DNA from: Nitrospirales bacterium
GTDB lineage: Bacteria; Nitrospirota; Nitrospiria; Nitrospirales; UBA8639
Direction: 5' to 3'
NCBI GenBank assembly: GCA_029261275.1
Contig: JAJDBR010000115.1
Span: 1-33,656 of the forward strand
DNA: 33,656 nt
Part shown: positions 21,911 through 33,656 of the stretch, in pieces
Position numbering within the stretch: the first letter of the stretch is position 1
How the letters are laid out: the number at the start of each line of letters is the position of its first letter
Made by a program: the position numbers and the translations under genes
Notes under the pieces: model-generated
Database searches by the model: none
Told to the model about the DNA's origin: nothing
Seen by the model: the letters and a program-made list of their open reading frames with translations, nothing else

Positions 21911-21930
21911 GAAAAGCCCCATCATTGGGG
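21911..21930 (-). terminator. Weak terminator overlapping the end of mobA
   Basis: CCCCA-4-TGGGG forms a 5-bp stem that overlaps the mobA stop codon and is followed on the minus strand by CTTTTC. The stem is short and the T tract weak, so termination would be partial. Confidence 0.35.
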
Positions 21931-22578
21931 GTGGGAGAAATGAGAAAAACGTTTCCGGGCGAATTCTAAATCTGCAGGAGTATTAATATTCAAAAAAGAC
22001 TGCCGGCTGGGATCAATATCGTCAAACAATGTTTCTCCAATTGTGTCGACTCTTATTTCAGTTCGGGAGCATAAATTTTGAATTTTTAAATCCCCTTCAT
22101 GAATCATCTGTTCAATAATCGGAGAACATCGCTTGGAATAACGGGCATGTAACGGCTGCAGGCCGGTAGTAAGTTCCACGACTAAAACGTCACTGATAGG
22201 ACCCAAACATATACGAGCAATACTTTCTTTTAATAAAAAAGGCATATCGCAGGCGACCACAAAGGTAAGGGAATTTTTGGCTTCAATTAAACCGGTATAT
22301 AGCCCCCCCAAAGAGCCCATTCCTGGAATTTTGTCAGTCACTAATCGAGCAGGTAGATGGGAACAGTCATAATCCTTTTGGGCAGTCACAACAAGAACTT
22401 CATCAAATAAACTGTTCATTATTCGACACACCCGGTCTAGAAAAGTTTCCCCGTCCCAATGAAGGCGTCGTTTATCACGCCCCATTCTTCGACTTTGTCC
22501 CCCACCTAGAATGACACCAGTAATGTTGGGGAATTTTCTTTGATCTGTCATAAAAAAAAAGGGGGTGGGAAAACCCAC
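21922..22578 (-). CDS. mobA: Molybdenum cofactor guanylyltransferase MobA
   Basis: MobA links GMP to Mo-molybdopterin to make the guanine-dinucleotide cofactor (MGD) used by DMSO-reductase-family enzymes such as NXR. Seen: the nucleotide-binding ITGVILGGGQSRRMGRDKRRL (G-G-x-S-R-R-M-G-x-D-K), VTDKIPGMGSLGGLYTGL and the metal-binding FVVACDMPFL. Two starts are possible. The GTG at 22578 has AGGAG six nt upstream but lies inside the terminator stem of the preceding operon. The ATG at 22551 gives a more usual N-terminus but directly follows the T9 tract and has no ribosome site. The GTG is reported (218 aa); with the ATG it is 209 aa. It lies after the cytochrome operon. Confidence 0.9.
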   Translation of the reverse strand: MGFPTPFFFMTDQRKFPNITGVILGGGQSRRMGRDKRRLHWDGETFLDRVCRIMNSLFDEVLVVTAQKDYDCSHLPARLVTDKIPGMGSLGGLYTGLIEAKNSLTFVVACDMPFLLKESIARICLGPISDVLVVELTTGLQPLHARYSKRCSPIIEQMIHEGDLKIQNLCSRTEIRVDTIGETLFDDIDPSRQSFLNINTPADLEFARKRFSHFSHPQ

Positions 22579-22582
22579 CCCC
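22552..22582 (-). terminator. Strong terminator of the bd-like oxidase/cytochrome operon
   Basis: On the minus strand GGGGGTGGG and CCCACCCCC form a perfect 9-bp stem with a TTTT loop, followed by T9. It lies 46 bp after the stop of the last cytochrome gene and overlaps the likely GTG start of mobA. Confidence 0.93.
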
Positions 22583-22627
22583 TTCTCCTATTCTTGCCAT
22601 CAGACCCTCAGAGCCTGATAGAAAATA

Positions 22628-24529
22628 TTATTTCGTCCCGAGTTCTTTTCGTCGATTTGACCGACGGGTCAAAATCCATCCCTCAACGATCACCAACCCC
22701 ACTGCAGCCAAACCAGCGTACCATTTAGCTTCGGATGGAATCGGTGGCTCTAATACCAGATAATAGAAAGCCGAGACACCCATCTTCCGACCCACATCGC
22801 CATTGTGGCCATCCCACACAAAAAAGTTAATCGGAATATATTTCCCTAATTCAATATAGGTATCAGCTTCATAATCCGCTTTTAGCGGACGGGAAATAAT
22901 GACCGTCCACCGTCCGTCTTTCCATTCGGCTTTTTCCAGCTTAAGCTGCTCAGTAAAATCATCTCGACCTTCAAGATCTTGGTCCCAGCCTGTGCCTTCA
23001 TAAGCCAACAGATTGCCATCAGCTGTCCATTTGGCTATATCGACAGGGAAGCCCTCATCACCCCAGAAATAACGAGGTTTCCGTGGCGGAGGCAATTCTT
23101 GAAATTTAATGGGCATTTGAAAGGCTAACCCATCATTAAATACTTGGTAGCTCGTTTGTTTGGCCGCAATCGAGTCTGGATGCATGCCATCATCATCAAA
23201 TCTACTGCCTCCTGGCTCTTGTTCAACAATGCCATAATCCGCAAGATTCACTTCGTATGGATCCCAATCGACCTCATCTTCTTGGATGCTTTTCGTCCGA
23301 TCATCCCACCGAAACATCATGGTCACATGAGTTTCGTTGTACAGTGATTGCACCCAGATATCATCAATACGGGTCACAAAGTTGCGGGGCTTATGAGTAA
23401 TTTGGCCACCAATAGCCACAATGCGGCGACCTTCTTTTTCCCATCGCTCATCATACCAACGAGGATCATGCTCATCTTTCGGCAACTCACCTTCAGCAAA
23501 CTTTGATGGAATGACAAAGTTTACTTTTGGTTTGTCGGTCAGTGGATCAATCCCTCGAGGTTTCGCCGAAGCAAGAGTAGCCGCAATCTCATCAGTGACT
23601 TGGCCACCTGCAATATCCACATCTGTGTCACGTTCACAAAGGGAACCGACATAGTTGGCAATATGCCAGCGGTCTTCAACCGTCGTGTTATCCGCAAACG
23701 AAGGCATTGGGGTGCCATTGATCCCGGTTGAGAATGTCCGGAAAATATTTTTAACATTGTAGGCATCTTGACGGCTGCCTCGGAAATTCCAGCATTTATG
23801 CCAGTCCGCCGGTTGAATCGAGAAACCCCAGTCATCTTTTAGATTAAACGCATTGCCATCGCCACGACCCTCTAACCCGTGACATTCAATACACTTATTC
23901 TCTATTACAAGCTCTGAACCACGCTTAATGGATTCGGCTGAGGCTGGCACGGCTGCTGCCGCTAACTTATCAAGTTCGAGGACATGTAATTCTTCAAATT
24001 CTTCATCCTGCCATGACCGTTCTTGTACAAGTTCAGTAGTCACAAATGCCAAAACATCTCGACGCTGATCTTCACTCAAGATCCCTTCCCACGAGGGCAT
24101 TGCAGAGCCGGGTAACCCATGGGTGACGGTTTGCAAGAGATCCACGTCAATCAACGGCAGTTCTCCACTCGCGGTATGACGAATCTTAAAAGTTCCGGCA
24201 TTAAAGTTTCGTGGACGAGGCCAAAGCCGATCAGCTCCTGGGCCATCCCCAGAGCCATTCACCCCATGACACCAAACACATTTGGTGAAATACACCCTTT
24301 TCCCAGCTTCGACCTGCTCCGCAGGCGGCGGTCCAGGCAATGTGTTTGTGACAAACCCTTCGGCCTCTTGCGCAAAGGCGGGACTACCAAGGCCTACGCC
24401 TACCATAAGGACCCCTAAAGCGAGGAGGCTCGCTGGTGCCCCTAAACGCCATCGGCTATCCATTTCCAGTCTGTTCATTGTTTCCCTCGTTGTTCCTGAA
24501 TTAACTATATAGGTTTGTTCCATGCTCAT
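22628..24529 (-). CDS. Dihaem cytochrome c fused to an NxrC-like haem b domain, membrane anchored
   Basis: This 633-residue protein has three parts. After an export signal (cleavage near SPAFA-QEA at 53) come two cytochrome c modules with CVWCH (84-88) and CIECH (213-217), each with a downstream Met (AMPSW, PMPSF) as likely sixth ligand. From about 340 to 600 follows an ethylbenzene-dehydrogenase-gamma-type domain (IDDIWVQSLYNETHVTMMFRW, IPINFFVWDGHNGDVGRKMGVS). The C-terminus is one membrane helix plus the basic RRSNRRKE. This would carry electrons between haem b and haem c on the outer face of the membrane. The ATG at 24529 has AAGGAGGG 8 nt upstream, directly behind the preceding stop; an internal ATG at 24478 also has a ribosome site. 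It is the last gene of the oxidase operon. Confidence 0.85.
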   Translation of the reverse strand: MSMEQTYIVNSGTTRETMNRLEMDSRWRLGAPASLLALGVLMVGVGLGSPAFAQEAEGFVTNTLPGPPPAEQVEAGKRVYFTKCVWCHGVNGSGDGPGADRLWPRPRNFNAGTFKIRHTASGELPLIDVDLLQTVTHGLPGSAMPSWEGILSEDQRRDVLAFVTTELVQERSWQDEEFEELHVLELDKLAAAAVPASAESIKRGSELVIENKCIECHGLEGRGDGNAFNLKDDWGFSIQPADWHKCWNFRGSRQDAYNVKNIFRTFSTGINGTPMPSFADNTTVEDRWHIANYVGSLCERDTDVDIAGGQVTDEIAATLASAKPRGIDPLTDKPKVNFVIPSKFAEGELPKDEHDPRWYDERWEKEGRRIVAIGGQITHKPRNFVTRIDDIWVQSLYNETHVTMMFRWDDRTKSIQEDEVDWDPYEVNLADYGIVEQEPGGSRFDDDGMHPDSIAAKQTSYQVFNDGLAFQMPIKFQELPPPRKPRYFWGDEGFPVDIAKWTADGNLLAYEGTGWDQDLEGRDDFTEQLKLEKAEWKDGRWTVIISRPLKADYEADTYIELGKYIPINFFVWDGHNGDVGRKMGVSAFYYLVLEPPIPSEAKWYAGLAAVGLVIVEGWILTRRSNRRKELGTK

Positions 24530-24543
24530 TGGCTAGGCCCTCC

Positions 24544-25512
24544 TTAATCCCAAGTCCGGGGGTAATAGCCTGTGTGCCAATATTCGAACATGATGACTTT
24601 CCAGATTTCATCGACGGTGAGATGCTGTTCCCATGGGGGCATGACCGAGGCCCAGGGAAATCCTTCACCTGGCAACCCGATGCCACCTTTTGCTACGCGC
24701 CAGAACACAAATGTTTCCTGCAACTGGGCTATGGTACCCGCGTCCGTGAAGTTGGCTGGAATCGGGTTAAAGGCAAAAGCCCACAGTCCGCGTCCATTCA
24801 AATTATCGCCATGACAAAAATGGCAGTTCTGGAAGAAAATCTCACCGCCTTCTCGTACATGCTTAATATAACCCTTGGCGTTTGGGTCCCAAGGGTTGTC
24901 TTCAGAGCTATTGACGTCTTTCATGAGGCGGCCCATGGATTGGTCTACGATATGAGCATTTGAGTAGGCCGGATCGTATTTACCTTCCGTATCAATGCGA
25001 TAAGGCTGTTGTGCTGTTTGGAGCACATACGTCTTCCCATGCACCTTCGTGGTGGCCGGTGGCGCTGGATGTACCGTCCGCAGCTCAATTGGTTCATCAA
25101 AACTTGGGAGAAGGGAGTTATAGGCAAAGGCTCCTAAACCTATTGGTAAAAGAAGCAACAATGCGGTCCTCAATACCTTTGTAAATGCCGTGTTGCCATC
25201 CAGAACATTGATGATAGGCCGTTTAAACTCCAACCATTCTTCCTGCGAACCAGACACCCACATAAAAATACCACAAGCCGACACGGTCCCATAAATGGCC
25301 CTAACACTGAAAGGTATGGGTGGATAGATTCGGTATTTCAAATAAAACAAATTCACAAAACACCAAACCAGGATACCCGCCCAAAACTTTGGCACTCCAA
25401 CACCCGCTTTCTTGAGCAGATAGTTGCAGGTAGAAAAGAACAGAATGCAGATGGCCAACTCCGCAATCATCTGCATCGGCATTTGGCCTTCGACTAATGG
25501 AATCCACTTCAT
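24544..25512 (-). CDS. Membrane-bound mono-haem cytochrome c
   Basis: This 322-residue protein has three or four membrane helices in the first 135 residues (about 14-33, 42-58, 68-87, 115-133), then a periplasmic cytochrome c domain with CHFCH at 230-234 and a likely Met ligand in SVMPPWEQH near 293. The last 15 residues are aromatic (FEYWHTGYYPRTWD). An AGGAG lies 9 nt before the ATG. It is placed between the two other c-type cytochromes of the operon (45-bp gap upstream; the downstream gene begins 14 bp after its stop), so it is almost certainly cotranscribed and probably part of one complex with the bd-like oxidase. I do not recognise a named family beyond cytochrome c. Confidence 0.85.
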   Translation of the reverse strand: MKWIPLVEGQMPMQMIAELAICILFFSTCNYLLKKAGVGVPKFWAGILVWCFVNLFYLKYRIYPPIPFSVRAIYGTVSACGIFMWVSGSQEEWLEFKRPIINVLDGNTAFTKVLRTALLLLLPIGLGAFAYNSLLPSFDEPIELRTVHPAPPATTKVHGKTYVLQTAQQPYRIDTEGKYDPAYSNAHIVDQSMGRLMKDVNSSEDNPWDPNAKGYIKHVREGGEIFFQNCHFCHGDNLNGRGLWAFAFNPIPANFTDAGTIAQLQETFVFWRVAKGGIGLPGEGFPWASVMPPWEQHLTVDEIWKVIMFEYWHTGYYPRTWD

Positions 25513-25557
25513 TCTTCCATACTCCTATATTCGAGGTTTACACCTGTAGATCAAATT

Positions 25558-26868
25558 CTATTCTTTAGCCGGTAAAGGCTTTCCCTCTTCCAATGCCGCT
25601 AAATAATCGACAATTTTACTAAGAGCCCCACCGGTTAACTTCAAACCAAAGTCTTTTGGCATTTGATTATCTGGGAAATCTGTCACCACATATGCACTGG
25701 GGTCTAAAATTGATTCAGTAATATATTCCTTTGTTGTTTTCGCTTTTCCAGCATACCCGGCATCTTTCATTCTCTTGGGAGCATTGGTACCCTCCCAAAG
25801 CTCCGGCCCAACTTTCCCCGTTGCCCCTTCAATCCCAGGAATAGTATGACAAGCCGGGCAGCCTGCACCCATAAAGAGGTCGTCATGAGATTCAGACCCA
25901 TCGACCAACATGTTACCTCCCTTGCCTTCTTCATCACCTTCAGTTGCTACAGGTCGGTCCGCTTCAGGAATAAACTTTTCATAGGAAGCTACAATAGCAT
26001 CATATCCTGGGGACTCCACGCCTTCCCGAGTGTACATCCAAGTATCAACTGCCGCTAATTCTCCAAGTTGCAGAGAAATTGGTGGCTTATGGATTCTTGG
26101 CATTGGACTGACCGTGTCGTTTGATCCCTTGACCCCAAAACCTGGAACCACAAAACAACTCGGACAAGCATGAGATTCAGCAATATATTCTTGGGCATTT
26201 GTGGCTGTTCCTGATCCCTCAAAAGATTCCTTTTGTTCTGTATTTCTAGCGGCTGCGTCATTCATATGATAAGTGGGGGCTTTTAATTGCTCAGAAGCTC
26301 GAGCAGGAATATTAAAAAGGTTTGGCGCTCGTTCACTCAAGAACCCCTTTTGAAAACCATGACACAAGGGACACTGCCCTTTGCCAATGGCTCCTTGCGT
26401 TTTGCTTTGACCAATTCCGCCAAAGATGATTTTTTCACCTTCATCTCCCAATTGCTGAGGAGACATACTTTGAAAGTCTAATTTTACAACCGGAGGAGGA
26501 AACCCACCCTCCACCTGTGGAAGCCAATTCCCATAACCCGATAGGGCAGCAGCCACAAAAAACATAAATCCCCCGATTTTCATCAAGGCACTTATATTTA
26601 CGAAATATAAACCCATAATGAAAGCCATGGATGTAATCATGACCAATGATATAGGAAGTTTCCCGGGATCATTTTCAAAATTATGGGTATAATTTGAAAC
26701 AGCAATCAGCACCAAAAACATGCACAATATTCCTATTAATGTCTGAAATGTTGCGCGTTTTTTTCGTTCAGGATCCTTAATGGTCGCTTGAAAGTAGACT
26801 AGGAGGCCGACAAGCATAACCATTATTGGCCACCCCAAGTCCCATGCTCTTGCTAATAATTCAACCAC
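25558..26868 (-). CDS. Membrane cytochrome c with two intact haem sites and one degenerate CPSCF
   Basis: This 436-residue protein has four membrane helices in the first 115 residues, then a long periplasmic part with CPLCH (166-170) and CPACH (337-341). A third motif, CPSCF (235-239), has Phe where the haem-binding His should be. Met residues for axial ligation occur in VSPMPRIH and DNQMPKDF. The start is placed at GTG 26868 because GGAGGAG lies 6 nt upstream; an earlier TTG at 26883 would put the start inside that ribosome site. It follows the oxidase gene by 64 bp, with a small hairpin between them. It is probably an electron carrier or structural subunit of the oxidase complex. Confidence 0.85.
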   Translation of the reverse strand: MVELLARAWDLGWPIMVMLVGLLVYFQATIKDPERKKRATFQTLIGILCMFLVLIAVSNYTHNFENDPGKLPISLVMITSMAFIMGLYFVNISALMKIGGFMFFVAAALSGYGNWLPQVEGGFPPPVVKLDFQSMSPQQLGDEGEKIIFGGIGQSKTQGAIGKGQCPLCHGFQKGFLSERAPNLFNIPARASEQLKAPTYHMNDAAARNTEQKESFEGSGTATNAQEYIAESHACPSCFVVPGFGVKGSNDTVSPMPRIHKPPISLQLGELAAVDTWMYTREGVESPGYDAIVASYEKFIPEADRPVATEGDEEGKGGNMLVDGSESHDDLFMGAGCPACHTIPGIEGATGKVGPELWEGTNAPKRMKDAGYAGKAKTTKEYITESILDPSAYVVTDFPDNQMPKDFGLKLTGGALSKIVDYLAALEEGKPLPAKE

Positions 26869-26888
26869 TGTATACTCCTCCAACTTTT

Positions 26889-26903
26889 GCCCCGATGAGG
26901 GGC
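26889..26903 (-). repeat. Intercistronic hairpin after the oxidase gene
   Basis: GCCCC and GGGGC pair over 5 bp around a 5-base loop between the oxidase stop and the next ribosome site. No T tract follows, so it more likely stabilises the oxidase message 3' end than terminates it. Confidence 0.4.
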
Positions 26904-26932
26904 ATATAATTATTGGTTAAGACCTTTTTTCA

Positions 26933-28942
26933 TTAATGACTCGTTGCCGGCTGCGGGGATGCCCCAGCAGGAATGGGCTCTGAAACTGGGCCCTTTATCA
27001 CTACTTTCTTGGCACCTAGAGTTCCGAGCCAAAAGACAAACATGATACTGATCCAGAAAAATAACACGTTAAAGGAAATAACATTAGCTGCAAAACCAAT
27101 GGTATGGGTATAGGCCCATGGAGAGTTGTCTCGCATGACTTCGTTGACATGCCAGAACAATCTCACCGATGAACGAATATACCCCATCAAGCCCATCATC
27201 CAAGTGAATGCCGTGGCCAACATGATTATCGCATATTGGGATCGGGGCGGTATTTGACCCCATCGAATGGGGCCTAATTGTCTTCCACCTTTCAACATGG
27301 CCAAATTTAATGGCGTCATGAGAAGTAAGCAAGACAACGTCCCAGCCACCTGAGGTACAGACAACCCAATTCGCACGTTTGCTGGAATGAAATATCCATA
27401 GACGGCGAGCGCAATATTATTTATTTGGGCAACTACGAAAAAACACCCCATAAATATATTTCCGAATTTTGACCAGCTCACCGTGGGCACTTTATTCCCT
27501 CGCTGATACCAAATAAAACTTAGAATGGTCGTCATAATAATGGCATTAATTCCACCATTTTTAGCAGACATCACACCATAGTTACCCAACACCGGATGTT
27601 GTTGACCTCCCATAGCTTTCAATTCAGCAGGAGACATCACAATGGTATGCGGCGTAATAAAGACCAGGAGTCCTACAACTAATATAAACACGAGATACTT
27701 AATATACTTTTGAAATCTTTCCCCTCCCGTCATCCGCCCTAGAGCTTGCCACAAGTAATAATTTGTGGTGAGGAAGAGAATTCCAATCATCGTAGCCTGA
27801 ATAATGAATAACCACGCCAACAATCCACCCATCAAGGTGATGCCCATTTGCTGCCTGTAGGCATACACCTCGCGCATCAACCAGTACCCCGCGAAGGGTA
27901 AGGGAATAAGAAACGCCACGCCTAAGCTCATGGCGATATAACCCATCCAATCATAATGAGCTCGTTCTTCGTCTGTATTTGAAGAAAGGAAGCGATAGGC
28001 TGCATAGGCTGCCACCACGCCCCCACCGAATGCCATATTTCCTAAAATTCTATGCACATTCAAAGGATTCCAAAGGGCCGTATGCAAAACATGCCATATG
28101 TTTCCCAAATATCGCCCCTGCTCATCCACGCCAGCAGGGGACATCATGAAGGCAATCCAGGAATTAGCCAAGAACATCAGCACGGTTCCGATGACATTCA
28201 GGATGACACACATACTTAAGTGAACCCACTTCAGCACGCCTTCCCTCATTTTGTCCCAGCCATAGTAATAGATGTAGAGGACCCCACTTTCCGCAACGAA
28301 CGTCAACGCATAAATGTGCATGACTGGGCGGAAAATACCAGACAAATAACCAAAGAAGGCGGGATAGAGGGTCAGGAAGGTAAAGATGAGAATTCCACCA
28401 AGAATGGCCGTCAGGGAATAGGCAGTTAAACTAATCCTGATAAAGTCATAGGCCAATTGATCATACTTTTTGGCCATAGCCTTATCCTTGCTAATCATGC
28501 CCGCAAACTCGATACACATACAAAAAATCGGAACCGCGAGCACAAAGCTGCCATAGTAGAGATGCTGTTGATTAGCTACCCACAGGAGAACTCGGCTCTC
28601 AAAGTTATACCGAGGATAAAATGTTTCATTATCCGCAGTAATAGGGGCAGGCATACCAATAGCTGGACCCTCTGTCTTGTAATAGACATCACGGCCCGTT
28701 TCTATCTTTACCGCTTCTCCCTCTACGCTCTCTCCTGCTTCAGCTGCCGCAGCTGCCGCAGCCTTCCGTTGCTCTAATACTTCGGGGGGAGGGCCACCAG
28801 CAGAACCTCCACCACCACCACCGGCCATTGCTGTTACCGATAAAATTATGGGGAGCGTTAAAAACACTCCAGCCACAATCAATGCGGTGACAGCGGAAAA
28901 CCTCTTCTTACCTCGGGTCATTGGAGTGAACAGGCGACCCAT
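26933..28942 (-). CDS. Cytochrome bd-like oxidase (Nitrospira type, single polypeptide)
   Basis: This 669-residue membrane protein has about 13-14 hydrophobic helices after a signal or first helix (residues about 15-40) and a Gly/Ala/Glu-rich spacer (40-75). It resembles the putative cytochrome bd-like oxidases of Nitrospira, with distant CydA similarity (QQHLYYGSFVLAVP, then GYWLMREVYAYRQQMG). Histidines in NQQHLYYG, RPVMHIYALTF, KWVHLSM, GNIWHVLHTALWN, NVHRILG, TPHTIVM, GQQHPVLG and FWHVNEV are candidate haem or metal ligands. The GRQPW quinol-site motif of classical CydA is absent, and no CydB is encoded. The start at 28942 has AAAGGAGGT 6 nt upstream; a longer frame begins at 28978. As the only oxidase-like gene in an operon of three cytochromes c, it probably reduces O2 with electrons from them. 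Confidence 0.85.
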   Translation of the reverse strand: MGRLFTPMTRGKKRFSAVTALIVAGVFLTLPIILSVTAMAGGGGGGSAGGPPPEVLEQRKAAAAAAAEAGESVEGEAVKIETGRDVYYKTEGPAIGMPAPITADNETFYPRYNFESRVLLWVANQQHLYYGSFVLAVPIFCMCIEFAGMISKDKAMAKKYDQLAYDFIRISLTAYSLTAILGGILIFTFLTLYPAFFGYLSGIFRPVMHIYALTFVAESGVLYIYYYGWDKMREGVLKWVHLSMCVILNVIGTVLMFLANSWIAFMMSPAGVDEQGRYLGNIWHVLHTALWNPLNVHRILGNMAFGGGVVAAYAAYRFLSSNTDEERAHYDWMGYIAMSLGVAFLIPLPFAGYWLMREVYAYRQQMGITLMGGLLAWLFIIQATMIGILFLTTNYYLWQALGRMTGGERFQKYIKYLVFILVVGLLVFITPHTIVMSPAELKAMGGQQHPVLGNYGVMSAKNGGINAIIMTTILSFIWYQRGNKVPTVSWSKFGNIFMGCFFVVAQINNIALAVYGYFIPANVRIGLSVPQVAGTLSCLLLMTPLNLAMLKGGRQLGPIRWGQIPPRSQYAIIMLATAFTWMMGLMGYIRSSVRLFWHVNEVMRDNSPWAYTHTIGFAANVISFNVLFFWISIMFVFWLGTLGAKKVVIKGPVSEPIPAGASPQPATSH

Positions 28943-29053
28943 GGACCTACCTCCTTTGAAAACGTGATGTTTGTACAACTAAATTTATTCTTTGACAACT
29001 TCGCATTTCGCTTATCCATCATGCTTGCCTAAAAAAACTACAGCTAAATTTGA

Positions 29054-29167
29054 TCACCTAAACATATAAAAAAAGTCTAACCCCTGAGAATCCATAAGCA
29101 ACCAATCTATCCCGATGAAATACGCTAAACAAATGGCAGTAGAAATTAAGACATATACAACAGTCAT
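29054..29167 (-). CDS. 37-aa single-helix membrane protein in the oxidase operon
   Basis: From ATG 29167 the frame codes 37 residues: a hydrophobic helix (about 2-20, TVVYVLISTAICLAYFIG) followed by IDWLLMDSQG and an aromatic end FFYMFR. A strong AAGGAGG lies a few nt before the ATG, which makes chance unlikely. It is 111 bp before the oxidase gene and 58 bp after the 43-aa gene, all on the same strand. Classical bd oxidases have a similar one-helix subunit (CydX/CbdX, 30-40 aa), so a subunit of the bd-like oxidase is the natural guess. No sequence similarity to CydX can be claimed by eye. Confidence 0.65.
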   Translation of the reverse strand: MTVVYVLISTAICLAYFIGIDWLLMDSQGLDFFYMFR

Positions 29168-29225
29168 TAGAATCCTCCTTCAAGGAATTCAATAAATTTA
29201 CATTCAAGTTGGAAGTGCTAAATAA

Positions 29226-29357
29226 TCAACAAGGACACTGAATGCCAGCAAACCAATAAAAAAACCACAAGCTCACTGCACACGTGAGATAAAATATTGC
29301 TTTCCCTACTTGCGTCTCTGTCCTCGTTGCTTCTCGAATTGGTCCTGCCTCAGCCAT
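29226..29357 (-). CDS. 43-aa single-helix membrane protein ending CPC
   Basis: From ATG 29357 the frame codes 43 residues: a charged N-terminal half (MAEAGPIREATRTETQ), one membrane helix (about 19-38, AIFYLTCAVSLWFFYWFAG) and the end IQCPC. A purine-rich AAGGGGTGG lies upstream of the ATG. It is the first gene of the minus-strand oxidase operon. The charge distribution suggests a cytoplasmic N-terminus, putting the final CxC at the periplasmic face, where it could bind copper or form a disulfide (inference). No family is recognised. Confidence 0.6.
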   Translation of the reverse strand: MAEAGPIREATRTETQVGKAIFYLTCAVSLWFFYWFAGIQCPC

Positions 29358-29482: not shown

Positions 29483-29590
29483 ATGCGTACCAATGCAAAA
29501 GTGTTCGACATTATAGTTTTGGCCGGAATGGTTGTCAATATTCTCCTGGCCGTATTTCTCATCCTTTACTACTTCGATTTTCTTGGATAA
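29483..29590 (+). CDS. 35-aa single-helix membrane protein, plus strand
   Basis: From ATG 29483 the frame codes 35 residues: a polar start (MRTNAKVF), one long hydrophobic helix (about 9-30, IIVLAGMVVNILLAVFLILYY) and the end FDFLG. AAAGGA lies about 7 nt upstream. It faces away from the oxidase operon, and its last 32 bp overlap the end of the convergent SUMF1-type gene. Its size and topology match the two other micro-proteins here, so a small oxidase subunit is possible. The antisense overlap and short length leave real doubt. Confidence 0.5.
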   Translation: MRTNAKVFDIIVLAGMVVNILLAVFLILYYFDFLG

Positions 29591-30491
29591 CGTTCAGTAA
29601 TTCAGTAGCTAAGCTTGCCGCCTCCTTGCCCTCTTTTGACCTGGCACATCGGAATCCAATCGTTTCATCGCGAAAATCTGGAACAATAAAACTTCGATTG
29701 GTAATCCGCAAGTCAACGCCTTGACTCGTATACCCTCCGCCACGCATCGTTTTATATGTTGAAACGGGTTGAGATCGGACGCCGCCTGGTTTCACGGCCC
29801 TGCTGTAGATATCTTCAACGTACCAATCTTCCACCCATTCCATCACATTTCCAGCCCCATCATACACTCCATACATACTTTGATCTTTCGAAAAGCTTCC
29901 CACCGGTGCCGTGACCTCATAGCCATCCTCCTCCCCATCAAAGTTGGCTGGAAACCCCTCTCTGCCTTCACCCCAGGGCCAGGTTCGACCATCTGAACCT
30001 CGGATCGCTTTTTCCCATTCTCGCTCAGTGGGAAGTCGCTTACCTTTCCATTCGCAATAGGCTACGGCATCATTCCAGGATACGTAGGTGACCGGTTGAT
30101 TGATTCCGCGAAGAGCTTCGAGCTTCCTGGCGTAACGGGATGGTGGCCCAGGCTGCCGATGCCCTGTGGCTTCAACGAACGCCATATACTGCTGATAGGT
30201 AACTTCGTACTGATCGATCCAATAGATCCCTAACGTTGAGGCATGTTGGGGCTTTTCATTGTAGCCGCCTTGATTGCTCCCTAGAATAAATTCCCCAGCT
30301 GGGATTTCGACCATGGTCTCTTCTGAAAGTTTGATGTTTTTTTGCGTCGAGGCGGATGTTTTATTGGATGGAGAAAACTGGGAATCAGGCTTCTCGATTG
30401 GAAGAGGTGGGCCTTTCAAGATTCCCATGATTGGCAAGCTGCACATCACCAGAATCGCAAGGAGAAAAACGACTTTAAACCGAGTATCCAT
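29559..30491 (-). CDS. Membrane-anchored SUMF1/FGE-fold protein, non-catalytic (copy 1)
   Basis: This 310-residue protein has one N-terminal helix (about 7-25), a Ser/Lys-rich linker (30-55) and a formylglycine-generating-enzyme (SUMF1) domain. It shows MVEIPAGEFILGSNQGG, IDQYEVTYQQYMAFVEATG, PVTYVSWNDAVAYCEWKGKRLPTEREWEKAIRG, YGVYDGAGNVMEWVEDWY and ETIGFRCAR. The oxidase-type FGE needs a cysteine pair shortly after the RGGS segment; here that region reads MRGGGYTSQGVDLRITNRS and has none, so formylglycine formation is unlikely. No sulfatase is nearby. It is the last gene of the second oxidase operon, 81 bp behind its paralogue. A binding or assembly role on the periplasmic side is inferred. 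Confidence 0.88.
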   Translation of the reverse strand: MDTRFKVVFLLAILVMCSLPIMGILKGPPLPIEKPDSQFSPSNKTSASTQKNIKLSEETMVEIPAGEFILGSNQGGYNEKPQHASTLGIYWIDQYEVTYQQYMAFVEATGHRQPGPPSRYARKLEALRGINQPVTYVSWNDAVAYCEWKGKRLPTEREWEKAIRGSDGRTWPWGEGREGFPANFDGEEDGYEVTAPVGSFSKDQSMYGVYDGAGNVMEWVEDWYVEDIYSRAVKPGGVRSQPVSTYKTMRGGGYTSQGVDLRITNRSFIVPDFRDETIGFRCARSKEGKEAASLATELLNVIQENRSSKG

Positions 30492-30572
30492 TGGATGCCT
30501 TATCCGAGATCAACCACCTTCACCAATTCCCTAGGCACCACAACCGCAACAAGAAAAGTTGAAGACCCCTGC

Positions 30573-31490
30573 CTAGGTCGAAGGGGTATTATCAGTTGGA
30601 GGATCTTTTGCACAACGAAACCCTACAGTCGAATCGGTTCGCCACATCTTAGCCGAAAATCGCTTCGTGACACGCGCGCCTAATCGGGATTCACGCCAAG
30701 ACCCTCCGCGAATCACTTTAAAGACATCATCGGTTTTTGGGCCAGGAGGATCACGGTAGGGAGCGTTCTGGTAATAATCTGCCGTATAGTCATCCATCAC
30801 CCATTCTGCCACATTTCCCGTGGCATCATAGAGCCCAAAAGGGCTCCTCCCCACCTCAAAGGATCCGACCGGTGCTAGGTATTGAAAACCATCGTCGAGT
30901 CCATCTACGTTTGCAAACGAATGTTCAAATTTATTCCCCCAGGGGTAGCGTCGCTTACCTTCGCCACGGGCCGCCTTTTCCCACTCCGCTTCCGTCGGTA
31001 ACCGTTTACTCGCCCAGCGACAATACCCAAAGGCATCATTCCACGTGAGCCCAACCACAGGAAAATCAGGACTGAGGAGTTTTTCGATCTTATCTTCAAA
31101 CACAGGCACTTTTGGCTTTTCTCGTTTGGTCATTTTCACGTATCGTTCATACTCCGCTTGAGTCACCTCGTTTATGTCCATATAAAACGTCTGAAGATAC
31201 ACAGGGTGAGCCGGGCCTTCATCAGGATCTCCATCGCTAACACCCATCGTAAAAGGACCTTCAGGGATTTCTACCATCACTCGGTTGTCATCCCCAATAA
31301 TTGTTTTATACATAGAAAAATCCTGAGTTGGCATAGGCTGAAGGACACGCGCCTTCGTGGAGCGGCCTGCCATCAGCGCTTCCATCTCACGTTTACTCTT
31401 GGACGTTTCATACACGAACAACACCATCATCCCAATAAACGAGGCAAAGACAAAGATAATTGACCCTATGAGAACTCCACGACTTTCCAT
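30573..31490 (-). CDS. Membrane-anchored SUMF1/FGE-fold protein, non-catalytic (copy 2)
   Basis: This 305-residue protein has an N-terminal membrane helix (about 7-28) and, from about residue 65, a SUMF1 domain: MVEIPEGPFTMGVSDGDPDEGPAH, MDINEVTQAEYERYVK, PVVGLTWNDAFGYCRWASKRLPTEAEWEKAARGEGKRRYPWGN, FGLYDATGNVAEWVMDDY, VIRGGSWRESRLGARVTKRF and STVGFRCAK. Like the adjacent copy it lacks the catalytic cysteine pair. The two are clearly paralogues with the same topology but many differences, so the duplication is not recent. It follows the glycine-rich membrane protein gene by 56 bp in the second oxidase operon. Confidence 0.88.
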   Translation of the reverse strand: MESRGVLIGSIIFVFASFIGMMVLFVYETSKSKREMEALMAGRSTKARVLQPMPTQDFSMYKTIIGDDNRVMVEIPEGPFTMGVSDGDPDEGPAHPVYLQTFYMDINEVTQAEYERYVKMTKREKPKVPVFEDKIEKLLSPDFPVVGLTWNDAFGYCRWASKRLPTEAEWEKAARGEGKRRYPWGNKFEHSFANVDGLDDGFQYLAPVGSFEVGRSPFGLYDATGNVAEWVMDDYTADYYQNAPYRDPPGPKTDDVFKVIRGGSWRESRLGARVTKRFSAKMWRTDSTVGFRCAKDPPTDNTPST

Positions 31491-31947: not shown

Positions 31948-32646
31948 TTACTCGGACTCAACTCGAAGCGAACCAAAATCAATCTCTACAGCTGAACCAC
32001 CTAACAACGAAATTCCCCAAGCCAAGGCCGCCGGTTCATGATTATGGATTTCCAAAAAATCTTTATAGACATTGACTCGCTCTTCCACCCACTCGCCAAT
32101 CGGCTCTGCCCCACTTCGGATCACCATTTCCGTCGAACTAAACATTCCACCTTCTTTAATCGAACCCACTGGCAACGTGGCGCTCCATACATATTTCGTA
32201 TTGACAGGGATAAACATCATATCCGTATCTAAGGAAGGGTATACCGCCGCAATAAATCCCTCTCCCTCTGGAACCACCTGAAGCCGCCATCGCCATACTA
32301 ATATGGGATGGGTCTTGGGAGCCCATGTCATCTGCTTCGTATACACTCGCTGACTGGCCTTTTTGGCTCTGAGAAAAGAGACCCCGTCCTCTTCTTGAAT
32401 CATGTAGGTTTCATGCGCAGTTACGACACTTCGTTGTGCGCCCCATCCTTGTGGAAACCCTCGTTCGTCCGGACTACGGAAATCTTCGATGAGGATGGAA
32501 GCCCCAGAGTTGGTGGATTCTTCGGCCCAGCCCAAACTCAACCCATTCACACACACAATCATTCCCACGAAACAGAGAGATAGACACCAGGTACGCATCA
32601 TGAATTCAACGCGACGAGGTCGCTGGCCATGTAAATCTAGAGTCAT
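31948..32646 (-). CDS. Secreted DUF3047-type protein coupled to the oxidase
   Basis: The ATG at 32646 overlaps the oxidase stop (ATGA) and has GAGGA a few nt upstream; a longer frame to 32769 inside the oxidase gene has no support. The 232-residue product has a signal peptide with a longish basic leader and hydrophobic core (about 17-38, ending GWA-EES). The mature part reads IEDFRSPDERGFPQGW, HPILVWRWRLQVVPEGEGFIAAVY and EIDFGSLRVESE, matching my memory of DUF3047: a beta-rich, probably carbohydrate-binding-like sandwich. The biochemical role is unknown. Translational coupling to the oxidase strongly suggests a periplasmic partner or assembly factor of it. Confidence 0.75.
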   Translation of the reverse strand: MTLDLHGQRPRRVEFMMRTWCLSLCFVGMIVCVNGLSLGWAEESTNSGASILIEDFRSPDERGFPQGWGAQRSVVTAHETYMIQEEDGVSFLRAKKASQRVYTKQMTWAPKTHPILVWRWRLQVVPEGEGFIAAVYPSLDTDMMFIPVNTKYVWSATLPVGSIKEGGMFSSTEMVIRSGAEPIGEWVEERVNVYKDFLEIHNHEPAALAWGISLLGGSAVEIDFGSLRVESE

Positions 32647-33656
32647 GCTGATTCCTCTTGTGAAAGAACTTGAACCACGGGCGTTGAGCGAACTGACTGA
32701 GCCATTCGTTGCTCGCTCACTCGATGATCCCACTGGCTGAGCCAAAAGACGAAAAACACCGCTGACCAAAAGGCGAACATATTAATCGTCACCATCTTCG
32801 CAGCAAATCCGATTGAAGGCGTGAAGGCCCATGGAGACTCATCTTGCAGCAATTCATTGACATGCCATTCCAATCGACCAGCCGACCGAATATATCCCAT
32901 GAGTCCCATCACCCAAGAAAAAGCCGCCGCCACAATAAGCAACGCCACCATACCACGCGGGGTAATGTGTCCCCATCGGATCGGGCCAATGATCTTTGAG
33001 CCCCGCAGCAGCAAGTAATTCAGAAATAGCCCGCCAATCACCACCGTCGCAGTTGTGGCCCCTTGCTGAGCGGACAAGCCGACGCGCACATTCGCCGGAA
33101 TATAAAATCCATAAATGGCTATTCCCACAATAGTCCCAATACCCGAGACAAACAACAGGCCCAAAAGCATATTCCCCCAAGATGCCCATGAGACTGTCGC
33201 AATTTTATTCGCACGGCGATACAAAATAAAACTGAGAGCCGTCAAACATATCATGACATTGATTGCCCCATTTTTTGCAGACATGACTCCAAATTGTCCG
33301 ATAACCGGATGTTGGGCCGCCCCCATTGCCTTCATTTCGCTCGCACTCGTGGCTAACGTATGAGGGGTAAACCACACCATGAAACAGGCCATCAAGGCAA
33401 AGACGATGGCTTTAAAATATGGATGGAAGCGCTCACCTCCCTGCAAGCGAGCCAAGGATTGCCAAATATAATAATTGATCCCCAAAAACAACACACCAAC
33501 CGTAATAGCCTGGAGAACAAACAACCACGACAACATCCCGCCCATCATGGTGATGCCCATTTGCTGTCTGAATTCAAATACCGCTCGCATCAGCCAATAG
33601 CCCGCAATAGGCATAGGCAACAACGCACACACCATCACCACCATAAACACATACCC
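32643..33656 (-). CDS. Second cytochrome bd-like oxidase (N-terminal part outside window)
   Basis: The frame is open to the right edge (G-Y-V-F-M at the end of the window), so only the C-terminal 337 residues are seen. It aligns along its whole length with the C-terminal half of the oxidase at 26933-28942: PIAGYWLMRAVFEFRQQMGI, ITVGVLFLGINYYIWQSL, WFTPHTLATSASEMKAMG, HPVIGQFGVMSAKNGAINV, FYIPANVRVGLSAQQ, IRWGHITPRG, VMGLMGYIRSAGRLEWHVNEL and FWSAVFFVFWL. Histidines in PHT, QHPV and WHVNE are shared; the THT His of the other copy is replaced (TPS). The C-terminal tail differs and is short and polar. It heads, within the window, an operon with DUF3047 and SUMF1-type genes rather than cytochromes c. 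Confidence 0.85.
   Translation of the reverse strand, partial: GYVFMVVMVCALLPMPIAGYWLMRAVFEFRQQMGITMMGGMLSWLFVLQAITVGVLFLGINYYIWQSLARLQGGERFHPYFKAIVFALMACFMVWFTPHTLATSASEMKAMGAAQHPVIGQFGVMSAKNGAINVMICLTALSFILYRRANKIATVSWASWGNMLLGLLFVSGIGTIVGIAIYGFYIPANVRVGLSAQQGATTATVVIGGLFLNYLLLRGSKIIGPIRWGHITPRGMVALLIVAAAFSWVMGLMGYIRSAGRLEWHVNELLQDESPWAFTPSIGFAAKMVTINMFAFWSAVFFVFWLSQWDHRVSEQRMAQSVRSTPVVQVLSQEESA

Follow-up and report, generated by a model that had tools for sequence, protein, structure and literature searches.

Nitrospira are widespread nitrite oxidisers whose terminal oxidase is still unproven. A putative oxygen-respiration cluster, named bd-like_3/alt_NxrC_2, has been published for this genus and consists of a bd-like core, two cytochromes c and an alternative NxrC, with another bd-like gene lying a few genes off (PMC6606698). 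On nitrite it was among the 40 most transcribed genes of N. moscoviensis; the same report printed the idea that NXR electrons pass to this cluster, and its authors prefer Nide0901 (bd-like_2) in the role of terminal oxidase and see bd-like_3 as working in reverse electron flow (PMC6606698). The accessible text of that report names no micro-proteins and no nested promoter. A cluster conserved among Nitrospinae, Nitrospirae and anammox bacteria is described as sharing four gene kinds, namely bd-like, dihaem c, trihaem c and alternative NxrC (PMC8026999); beside the NxrC it thus has a dihaem and a trihaem cytochrome, whereas the CxxCH counts at the locus studied here are 2, 1 and 2. The order of kustd1712-kustd1709 of Kuenenia (cydA-like, dihaem, monohaem, dihaem) matches that found here, as judged from the gene table, and this cluster sits within the NXR cluster (PMC6423088). 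TO_1 of Candidatus Manganitrophaceae is alike in joining a bd-like complex to a periplasmic cytochrome b-type subunit and occurs in Nitrospirota without nitrification genes, but its proposed donor is Mn(II), unlike here (PMC9040806). Literature searches for complexome data on a bd-like/NXR pair found only PMC6606698, and a search for a supercomplex structure found none.

Organisation of the locus

The window is the whole stretch of 33,656 nucleotides from a Nitrospirales bacterium that was analysed. Six minus-strand open reading frames, grouped as one module by a first-pass annotation of this DNA, are indeed present at 22628-29357 in the ORF listing. The features are as follows.

21922..22551, minus strand: MobA-like protein (Mo cofactor guanylyltransferase), from NCBIfam MobA models, below cut-offs
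22559..22584, minus strand: intrinsic terminator stem, then a T run, from stem search and folding energy
22628..24529, minus strand: alt_NxrC, in which a dihaem cytochrome c part is joined to an EB_dh (NxrC/EbdC-like) domain, plus a C-terminal hydrophobic segment
24544..25512, minus strand: membrane monohaem cytochrome c, one CxxCH
25558..26883, minus strand: membrane cytochrome c with four TM helices at the N-terminus, two CxxCH and one CPxC[YF]
26933..28942, minus strand: bd-like CydA-superfamily protein, Pfam PF01654, bd-oxidase fold matches
29054..29167, minus strand: micro-gene B, 37 aa with a single TM helix, ends LMDxQGLD[FY][FW]Y
29226..29357, minus strand: micro-gene A, 43 aa with a single TM helix, CPC at the C-terminus
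29483..29590, plus strand: micro-gene C, read divergently from the operon, 35 aa with a single TM helix
29510..29538, minus strand: promoter-like site of the operon (TTGACA-17-TATAAT), lying antisense within micro-gene C
29559..31490, minus strand: two FGE-sulfatase-domain proteins, PF03781 at 5e-55 and 7e-57
32643..33656, minus strand: another bd-like paralogue (type B), truncated at the end of the contig

The four large genes match the already published cluster and are not new. New here are the recognition of the micro-genes as coding genes, the nested promoter-like site and the divergent micro-gene C.

A CydA-like core protein

The bd-like reading frame opens at TTG 28978, and the ATG at 28942, which is preceded by AAAGGAGG, is probably the start of the gene. 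The protein matched Pfam Cyt_bd_oxida_I (PF01654) at 3.3e-14 with 52.7 bits (curated cut-off 26.2). The ten best PDB matches of its AlphaFold model (mean pLDDT 79) were all bd-oxidase entries, on which the model superposed weakly overall (TM by query 0.34-0.40, rmsd 13-21 A). The residues were compared by aligning the bd-like sequences to CydA of E. coli and to two canonical CydA from Nitrospirales; in this alignment H127, H297 and E218 align with CydA H19, H186 and E107, and the H19 and H186 columns hold His in all 13 bd-like sequences. The columns of E99 and E445, which we take to bind the high-spin haems of E. coli bd-I axially (E445 haem b595), are Tyr and Leu/Val, respectively, in 13 of 13 sequences, so the oxygen site, if present, would be differently built. 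The M393 column holds Ile, Leu or Met, in a C-terminal half that aligns ambiguously.

K252 and E257 of the Q-loop, presumably the quinol residues of E. coli CydA, are not conserved in the bd-like sequences, the Q-loop alignment itself being loose. The first-pass annotation had regarded GRQPW as the missing quinol motif; the motif is absent, only its Arg meeting an Arg across a gap, but in the alignment GRQPW of E. coli CydA adjoins E445 and not the residues presumed to bind quinol. The same annotation had the oxidase joined to cytochromes c and not to CydB, in agreement with a profile search in which no CydB family was found among the ten neighbouring proteins scanned. E. coli K-12 bd-I (CydABX) shares with the module the CydA family, the H19/H186/E107 equivalents and a one-helix small subunit, whereas the module is without CydB, the Q-loop K/E, E99, E445 and GRQPW and adds three cytochromes c. 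The bd-like protein is described as a predicted CydA-like core that lacks the quinol residues known from CydA.

The cytochromes c and the NxrC-like domain

The CxxCH counts of the three cytochromes (2 in 22628-24529, 1 in 24544-25512 and 2 in 25558-26883) were unchanged in 83/83, 87/87 and 94/94 orthologues, respectively, that cover at least 70% of the query. All 94 orthologues of 25558-26883 also carry CPxC[YF]. A reading of this motif as one more, third attachment site for haem c was rejected: in the model the motif belongs to the first cytochrome c domain, and its counterpart in the second is DPSAY. From this position it is read as an invariant cysteine pair. Among the papers listed by a literature search on CXXCF/CXXCY haem attachment none contained those terms, and Foldseek of the 25558-26883 model gave no match at E 0.001 or better.

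The dihaem part of alt_NxrC matches 6h5l_B at 2e-40. Its other domain belongs to the EB_dh family in common with NxrC (7b04_C) and EbdC (2ivf_C), from which alt_NxrC differs in being fused to a dihaem c domain. The NxrC domain of the first-pass annotation holds at the level of Pfam EB_dh (57.4 bits, cut-off 33.3), but the score is far under the TIGR03477 cut-off (61.2 bits against 169.85). The positions of the Met and Lys of NxrC/EbdC, which we assume to be haem b ligands, are occupied by W, F or H and by T, D, E, M, N, Q or S, respectively, in the 25 of 83 orthologues caught by the pattern, which missed 58, and this region aligns weakly with 7b04_C (8.2 bits). The replacement of these positions counts against the haem b/haem c chain for NXR electrons as proposed earlier.

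Conservation and proposed function

The first-pass annotation would have been refuted by absence of the gene order in relatives, but synteny was near complete: where the contig reaches far enough, the bd-like gene is followed by the three cytochromes in 81/81, 72/72 and 71/71 loci. Among 40 relatives, a full-length match of at least 66% was listed for 32, and in the other eight, incomplete genomes (73-91% complete), only paralogues were seen. Loci fetched from other families of the Nitrospiria, which we infer to be the loci described as TO_1, also kept the four-gene order (12/12), and NxrA was not found in their genomes; all candidates were scored in this set without a positive genome, and the same-query search (at most two candidates scored per genome) therefore serves as its control. 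The window's own genome (283 contigs, 90% complete) gave no NxrA match and only weak family matches, likely owing to an assembly gap. The conserved operon of a CydA-like core and three membrane cytochromes c stands, but the claim that it was built to take NXR electrons through a haem b/haem c chain finds no support in that form, the module being intact where no NxrA was found. For a link to NXR speak the N. moscoviensis transcripts (PMC6606698) and the Kuenenia cluster (PMC6423088), together with an NxrC-like gene and a NarJ/TorD-like gene on the window's contig and a bd-like paralogue near nxrA. The link is looser than first proposed.

In the reading that we infer, which takes in the formation and topology of a complex, its donor, O2 as its acceptor and the direction of electron flow, the operon would encode one inner-membrane complex around a single CydA-like core, of the type named TO_1 in the literature or, in citing papers, OR-N. 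Three membrane-anchored cytochromes c would feed the core from the periplasmic side, and two single-helix micro-subunits would be built in, by analogy with CydX in cytochrome bd-I. Electrons would pass from a high-potential periplasmic donor to the core and most probably to O2, the donor in Nitrospirales probably being NXR, directly or via a soluble carrier. We put an even chance on the whole module being such a cytochrome c-fed complex that most probably reduces oxygen. As judged from sequence, cytochrome c-fed oxygen reduction appears the best reading and is moderately supported by the strict linkage of the cytochrome genes, the CydA family, fold and kept H19/H186/E107 equivalents, the absence of the Q-loop K252/E257, and the lack of COX1 and canonical CydA in the window's genome. 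The high transcription on nitrite in N. moscoviensis points the same way (PMC6606698).

Two further genomes, G163 (96% complete) and G300 (95%), add a sole-candidate argument that would favour this reading: the module's bd-like gene is their only CydA-superfamily gene, COX1 is absent in G163 and only a weak COX1 piece of 58 profile positions occurs in G300, so neither appears to encode a credible haem-copper oxidase. Such genomes are natural test cases for function. They also stand against a pairing in which the module supplies half of a two-core CydAA'-type oxidase, with the type B neighbour or a Nide0901-like type D as partner, and only the pair reduces oxygen. Papers citing the OR-N work expect OR-N1 and OR-N2 proteins to pair, a bd-like paralogue (type B; 54% identical to the module's bd-like protein over 307 residues) is encoded upstream of the module in 64 of 67 loci, and the PF01654 genes seen in the NXR-free G026 and G032 belong to types A and D, with no canonical CydA among them. 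We consider the two-core arrangement unlikely.

Oxygen reduction by the module is weakened by the replacement of E99/E445 in 13/13 bd-like sequences and by the eight relatives with paralogues only. Kuenenia is a strict anaerobe. Its cluster is nevertheless kept within the NXR locus (PMC6423088), and the preference of published authors for Nide0901/bd-like_2 as terminal oxidase also counts against oxygen reduction by the module (PMC6606698). The replaced E99/E445 and the Kuenenia cluster would suit an NXR membrane anchor working in reverse, in which the proton motive force pushes nitrite electrons uphill to quinone and complex I then makes reductant for CO2 fixation. Reverse transport has been proposed in print for this cluster (PMC6606698) and for Nitrospina, and in the window's genus a 74-77% identical bd-like gene lies about 290 bp directly upstream of nxrA in 5/5 fetched loci, which were chosen because their coordinates already showed a bd-like neighbour. 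However, no known quinone site is left in the bd-like protein, and the module is intact in the other-family loci from genomes in which NxrA was not found; reverse transport is possible but less likely. A protective O2 or NO reductase, as opposed to an energy-conserving respiratory enzyme, would agree with the cluster found in anammox bacteria (PMC6423088) and with reports that canonical bd oxidases also detoxify. The very strong expression of the cluster during growth of N. moscoviensis (PMC6606698) and a perfect promoter-like site in 76/77 Nitrospirales loci, which fits housekeeping use, make a protective role very improbable.

Micro-proteins and the promoter-like site

Micro-genes A and B of the operon, both named in the first-pass annotation, are true coding genes, but that annotation missed the third, divergent one. 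Among Nitrospirales loci, A was present in 77/77 (dN/dS-like 0.030), B in 75/77, or 74/77 by a stricter motif (0.085), and C, counted where the upstream sequence extended for at least 1.2 kb, in 77/77 by a loose anchor and 76/77 by a stricter motif (0.055). These values used short anchors, with the anchor codons left out. Earlier N/S ratios of 0.015, 0.071 and 0.030 were superseded because the choice of sequences by long motifs had biased them low. The three are strongly conserved, little-noticed miniature membrane proteins; genes of 35-43 codons are easily missed in annotation, and their products are concrete subunits to seek in complexome or cryo-EM data.

The TTGACA-17-TATAAT site matches the consensus at 12/12 positions and is the sole perfect one among the 12 sites listed by a scan with a lax threshold (15.6 sites expected by shuffling). 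A perfect -35/-10 pair lies antisense inside micro-gene C in 76/77 Nitrospirales loci where this gene was found and in 0/4 NXR-free loci. The four third codon positions beneath the hexamers carry 0.19 bits against 1.05 for the 22 others (permutation p 0.0002). From these sequence patterns, the site at 29510..29538 is likely the operon's promoter. An order-wide promoter nested in antisense coding sequence would exemplify overlapping functions cleanly. The tail of micro-protein A, presumably on the periplasmic side, is Cys-Pro-Cys on the NXR branch and His-bearing elsewhere. It is conceivable, but quite unlikely, that the NXR-acquiring branch remodelled an older, donor-neutral complex of bd-like protein and cytochromes c, and that the CPC tail (as an NXR docking or metal-relay contact) and a perfect sigma-70 promoter inside the micro-protein C gene both became fixed there.

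The strong terminator annotated at the operon end was borne out by a perfect 11-bp stem followed by a T run (-27.4 kcal/mol, z -5.0); the consensus scan did not list it, and Rfam gave no match at the gathering threshold. The MobA-like gene likely starts at the ATG immediately past this terminator; its best NCBIfam MobA match was 1.3e-41, below the model cut-off. At least one FGE-sulfatase-domain gene lies upstream of the operon in 76/76 loci, and the MobA-like gene lies downstream of the module in 64/65.

Gene layout and conserved residues

The six ORFs of the first-pass annotation are all present, on the minus strand, as listed here, and the strong terminator reported at the operon end was found after the last gene.

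29226-29357, minus: micro-gene A (43 aa), nearest the promoter
29054-29167, minus: micro-gene B (37 aa)
26933-28942/28978, minus: bd-like protein
25558-26883, minus: membrane cytochrome c with four helices and two CxxCH motifs
24544-25512, minus: membrane monohaem cytochrome c
22628-24529, minus: alt_NxrC, a fusion of a dihaem cytochrome c with an EB_dh (NxrC/EbdC-like) domain

A MobA-like gene is next beyond the terminator, and the upstream side carries two FGE-sulfatase-domain genes, one gene of no assigned family, a DUF3047 gene and, truncated by the contig end, another bd-like paralogue. A further hairpin (22575-22640, minus strand, z -2.2) follows the last stop codon, ahead of the terminator.

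Alignment with E. coli CydA showed that H127, H297 and E218 of the bd-like protein are the equivalents of H19, H186 and E107, while E99 and E445 are replaced by Tyr211 and Leu585, and the Q-loop residues K252/E257 are not kept; the ligand roles of these CydA residues are taken as assumed. The reported lack of GRQPW was borne out by the same alignment. H127, H241, H297 and H598 were common to the six paralogue rows compared, and H432 and H449 were common to types B (the upstream paralogue) and C but not found in D. A Nitrospinae paper describes the same protein as missing two histidines of haem-copper oxidases, one of CuB and one of haem (PMC8026999). The EB_dh domain has lost the Met and Lys positions of NxrC/EbdC, so its haem b is doubtful. 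The dihaem part of alt_NxrC resembles 6h5l_B, which we take to be a Kuenenia cytochrome.

In the first cytochrome c domain of the 25558-26883 product, a CPxC[YF] cysteine pair (residues 240-244) is invariant in 94/94 orthologues and is a candidate disulfide or metal site. The two FGE-sulfatase-domain proteins (29559-31490) keep GFRC, and they may not truly make formylglycine because the second Cys was not seen in the same C-terminal region, given the Cys roles that we assume; they are possibly maturation factors. On the same contig (5693-6646 and 6748-7719), an NxrC-like protein adjoins a NarJ/TorD-like gene and has Asn at the position of the Lys in the NxrC and EbdC structures (7b04_C and 2ivf_C).

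Synteny of the module and its relation to NXR

The four-gene module has already been published. Gene order was compared in 84 loci, namely the best 80 of 414 bd-like relatives in the genome collection, a choice favouring close relatives, three loci of f4 (an NXR-free family of the class Nitrospiria) and the window; all 80 were counted as Nitrospirales by similarity, two carrying Nitrospinota titles, and two came from one genome. Where the contig sufficed, the dihaem (81/81), monohaem (72/72), alt_NxrC (71/71) and MobA (64/65) genes followed within 5.5 kb of the bd-like gene and shared its strand, with an FGE gene (76/76) and a second bd-like gene (64/67) upstream. The order was identical among the loci listed; the conserved gene order that the first-pass annotation had named as a check was found in relatives. 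A separate search of 40 relatives listed a full-length bd-like match of at least 66% for 32, and paralogues alone for the other eight (genomes 73-91% complete). Two near-identical module copies, L006 and L023, occur in one assembly, OFTM313 (bd-like identity to the window 96% and 94%), the L023 copy ending within the monohaem gene.

In a phylum sample of 295 genomes, the dihaem cytochrome was matched in 120 and NxrA in 95. The 120 comprised 98 genomes of the order (short matches alone in G211, G241 and G298), 15 of other families of the class (G215 weak) and seven weak matches in the rest of the phylum. The NxrA-positive genomes comprised 83 in the order, all within those 98, and 12 outside the class at 38-42% identity; the remaining 15 of the 98, including the window's genome, are spread over genera most of which otherwise bear NxrA. 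A direct test for NxrA gave 0/20 (the 15 class genomes, f4 and the window's genome). Of the 15 class genomes 12 were fetched, and the order bd, dihaem, monohaem, alt_NxrC was kept in 12/12, in which the alt_NxrC match of L122 is in two pieces, the bd gene of L128 is truncated by the contig end, the contigs of L124 and L128 end before any FGE gene could show, and a MobA match was absent from the fetched stretches. These NXR-free lineages probably correspond to the UBA2166 and Troglogloeales of the literature.

The tie to NXR is less close than the first-pass annotation proposed. A bd-like paralogue does adjoin nxrA: in 5/5 loci of the window's genus chosen for that arrangement (L102-L106), a bd-like gene with 74-77% identity, but without the module's cytochromes, shares the strand of nxrA and precedes it by about 290 bp, and a sixth case by coordinates brings this to 6/20 genomes searched in the genus. 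However, the module is intact where NxrA was not found, and its independence from NXR at gene-order level is added by the present work. The single-contig genome G142 (L130) also carries the module, with no NxrA match among the two of six candidates scored.

Conserved micro-proteins and a nested promoter-like site

Three conserved micro-proteins are also added here. Short anchors, applied to the 77 Nitrospirales loci that extend 1.2 kb or more upstream, located A and C in all 77 and B in 75, with dN/dS-like ratios of 0.030 for A, 0.085 for B and 0.055 for C (anchor codons excluded; plain pairwise counts uncorrected for ancestry). Micro-gene C (29483-29590, plus strand), divergent to the operon, is ultraconserved and encodes a protein of 35 aa with a single helix. 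Outside the order, with seven too-short loci and L128 (no usable ORF) set aside, each was present in 2/2 f4 loci, and A, B and C in 4/10, 1/10 and 2/10 loci of other Nitrospiria families, where absences are weak evidence as the motifs derive from Nitrospirales. Micro-protein A ends in CPC in 77/77 Nitrospirales loci (CPCN once) and in HH in 2/2 f4 loci; in other families His is terminal or next-to-last (4/4). None of the three is mentioned in the main texts covered by a narrow literature search, and a CydX survey records CydX within this phylum in two Leptospirillum alone.

The nested promoter-like site is likewise new. Just one sigma-70 match in the region is perfect, the scan overall giving 12 lax matches versus 15.6 expected. 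It lies antisense inside micro-gene C, and its place and strand suggest that it drives the operon. TTGACA is conserved in 65 of 69 unique sequences and TATAAT in 64 of them, and the four synonymous third codon positions covered by the hexamers had 0.19 bits, compared with 1.05 for 22 others (p 0.0002 by permutation over positions, shared ancestry uncorrected). Both hexamers were perfect in 76 of the 77 Nitrospirales loci in which C was located, versus 0/4 loci of NXR-free lineages (L107, L108, L117 and L120). The coincidence of CPC tail and promoter with NXR is a lead and not a test, because it concerns a single branch with few outgroup loci.

Survey of oxygen reductase genes

Four bd-like genes are present in the window's genome, which gave neither a COX1 match nor a canonical CydA. 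Canonical CydA was not found in 17 NXR-free genomes either, the best PF01654 match being 5.6e-23 versus 1.5e-142 for a canonical gene. In a COX1 search covering 12 genomes, NXR-free G193 has COX1, and in G163 and G300 it was absent or a weak fragment. G163 and G300 each contain exactly one CydA-superfamily gene, the module's bd-like gene, and these sole-candidate genomes are a further addition of this study: if they respire oxygen via known enzyme types, the module would do so.
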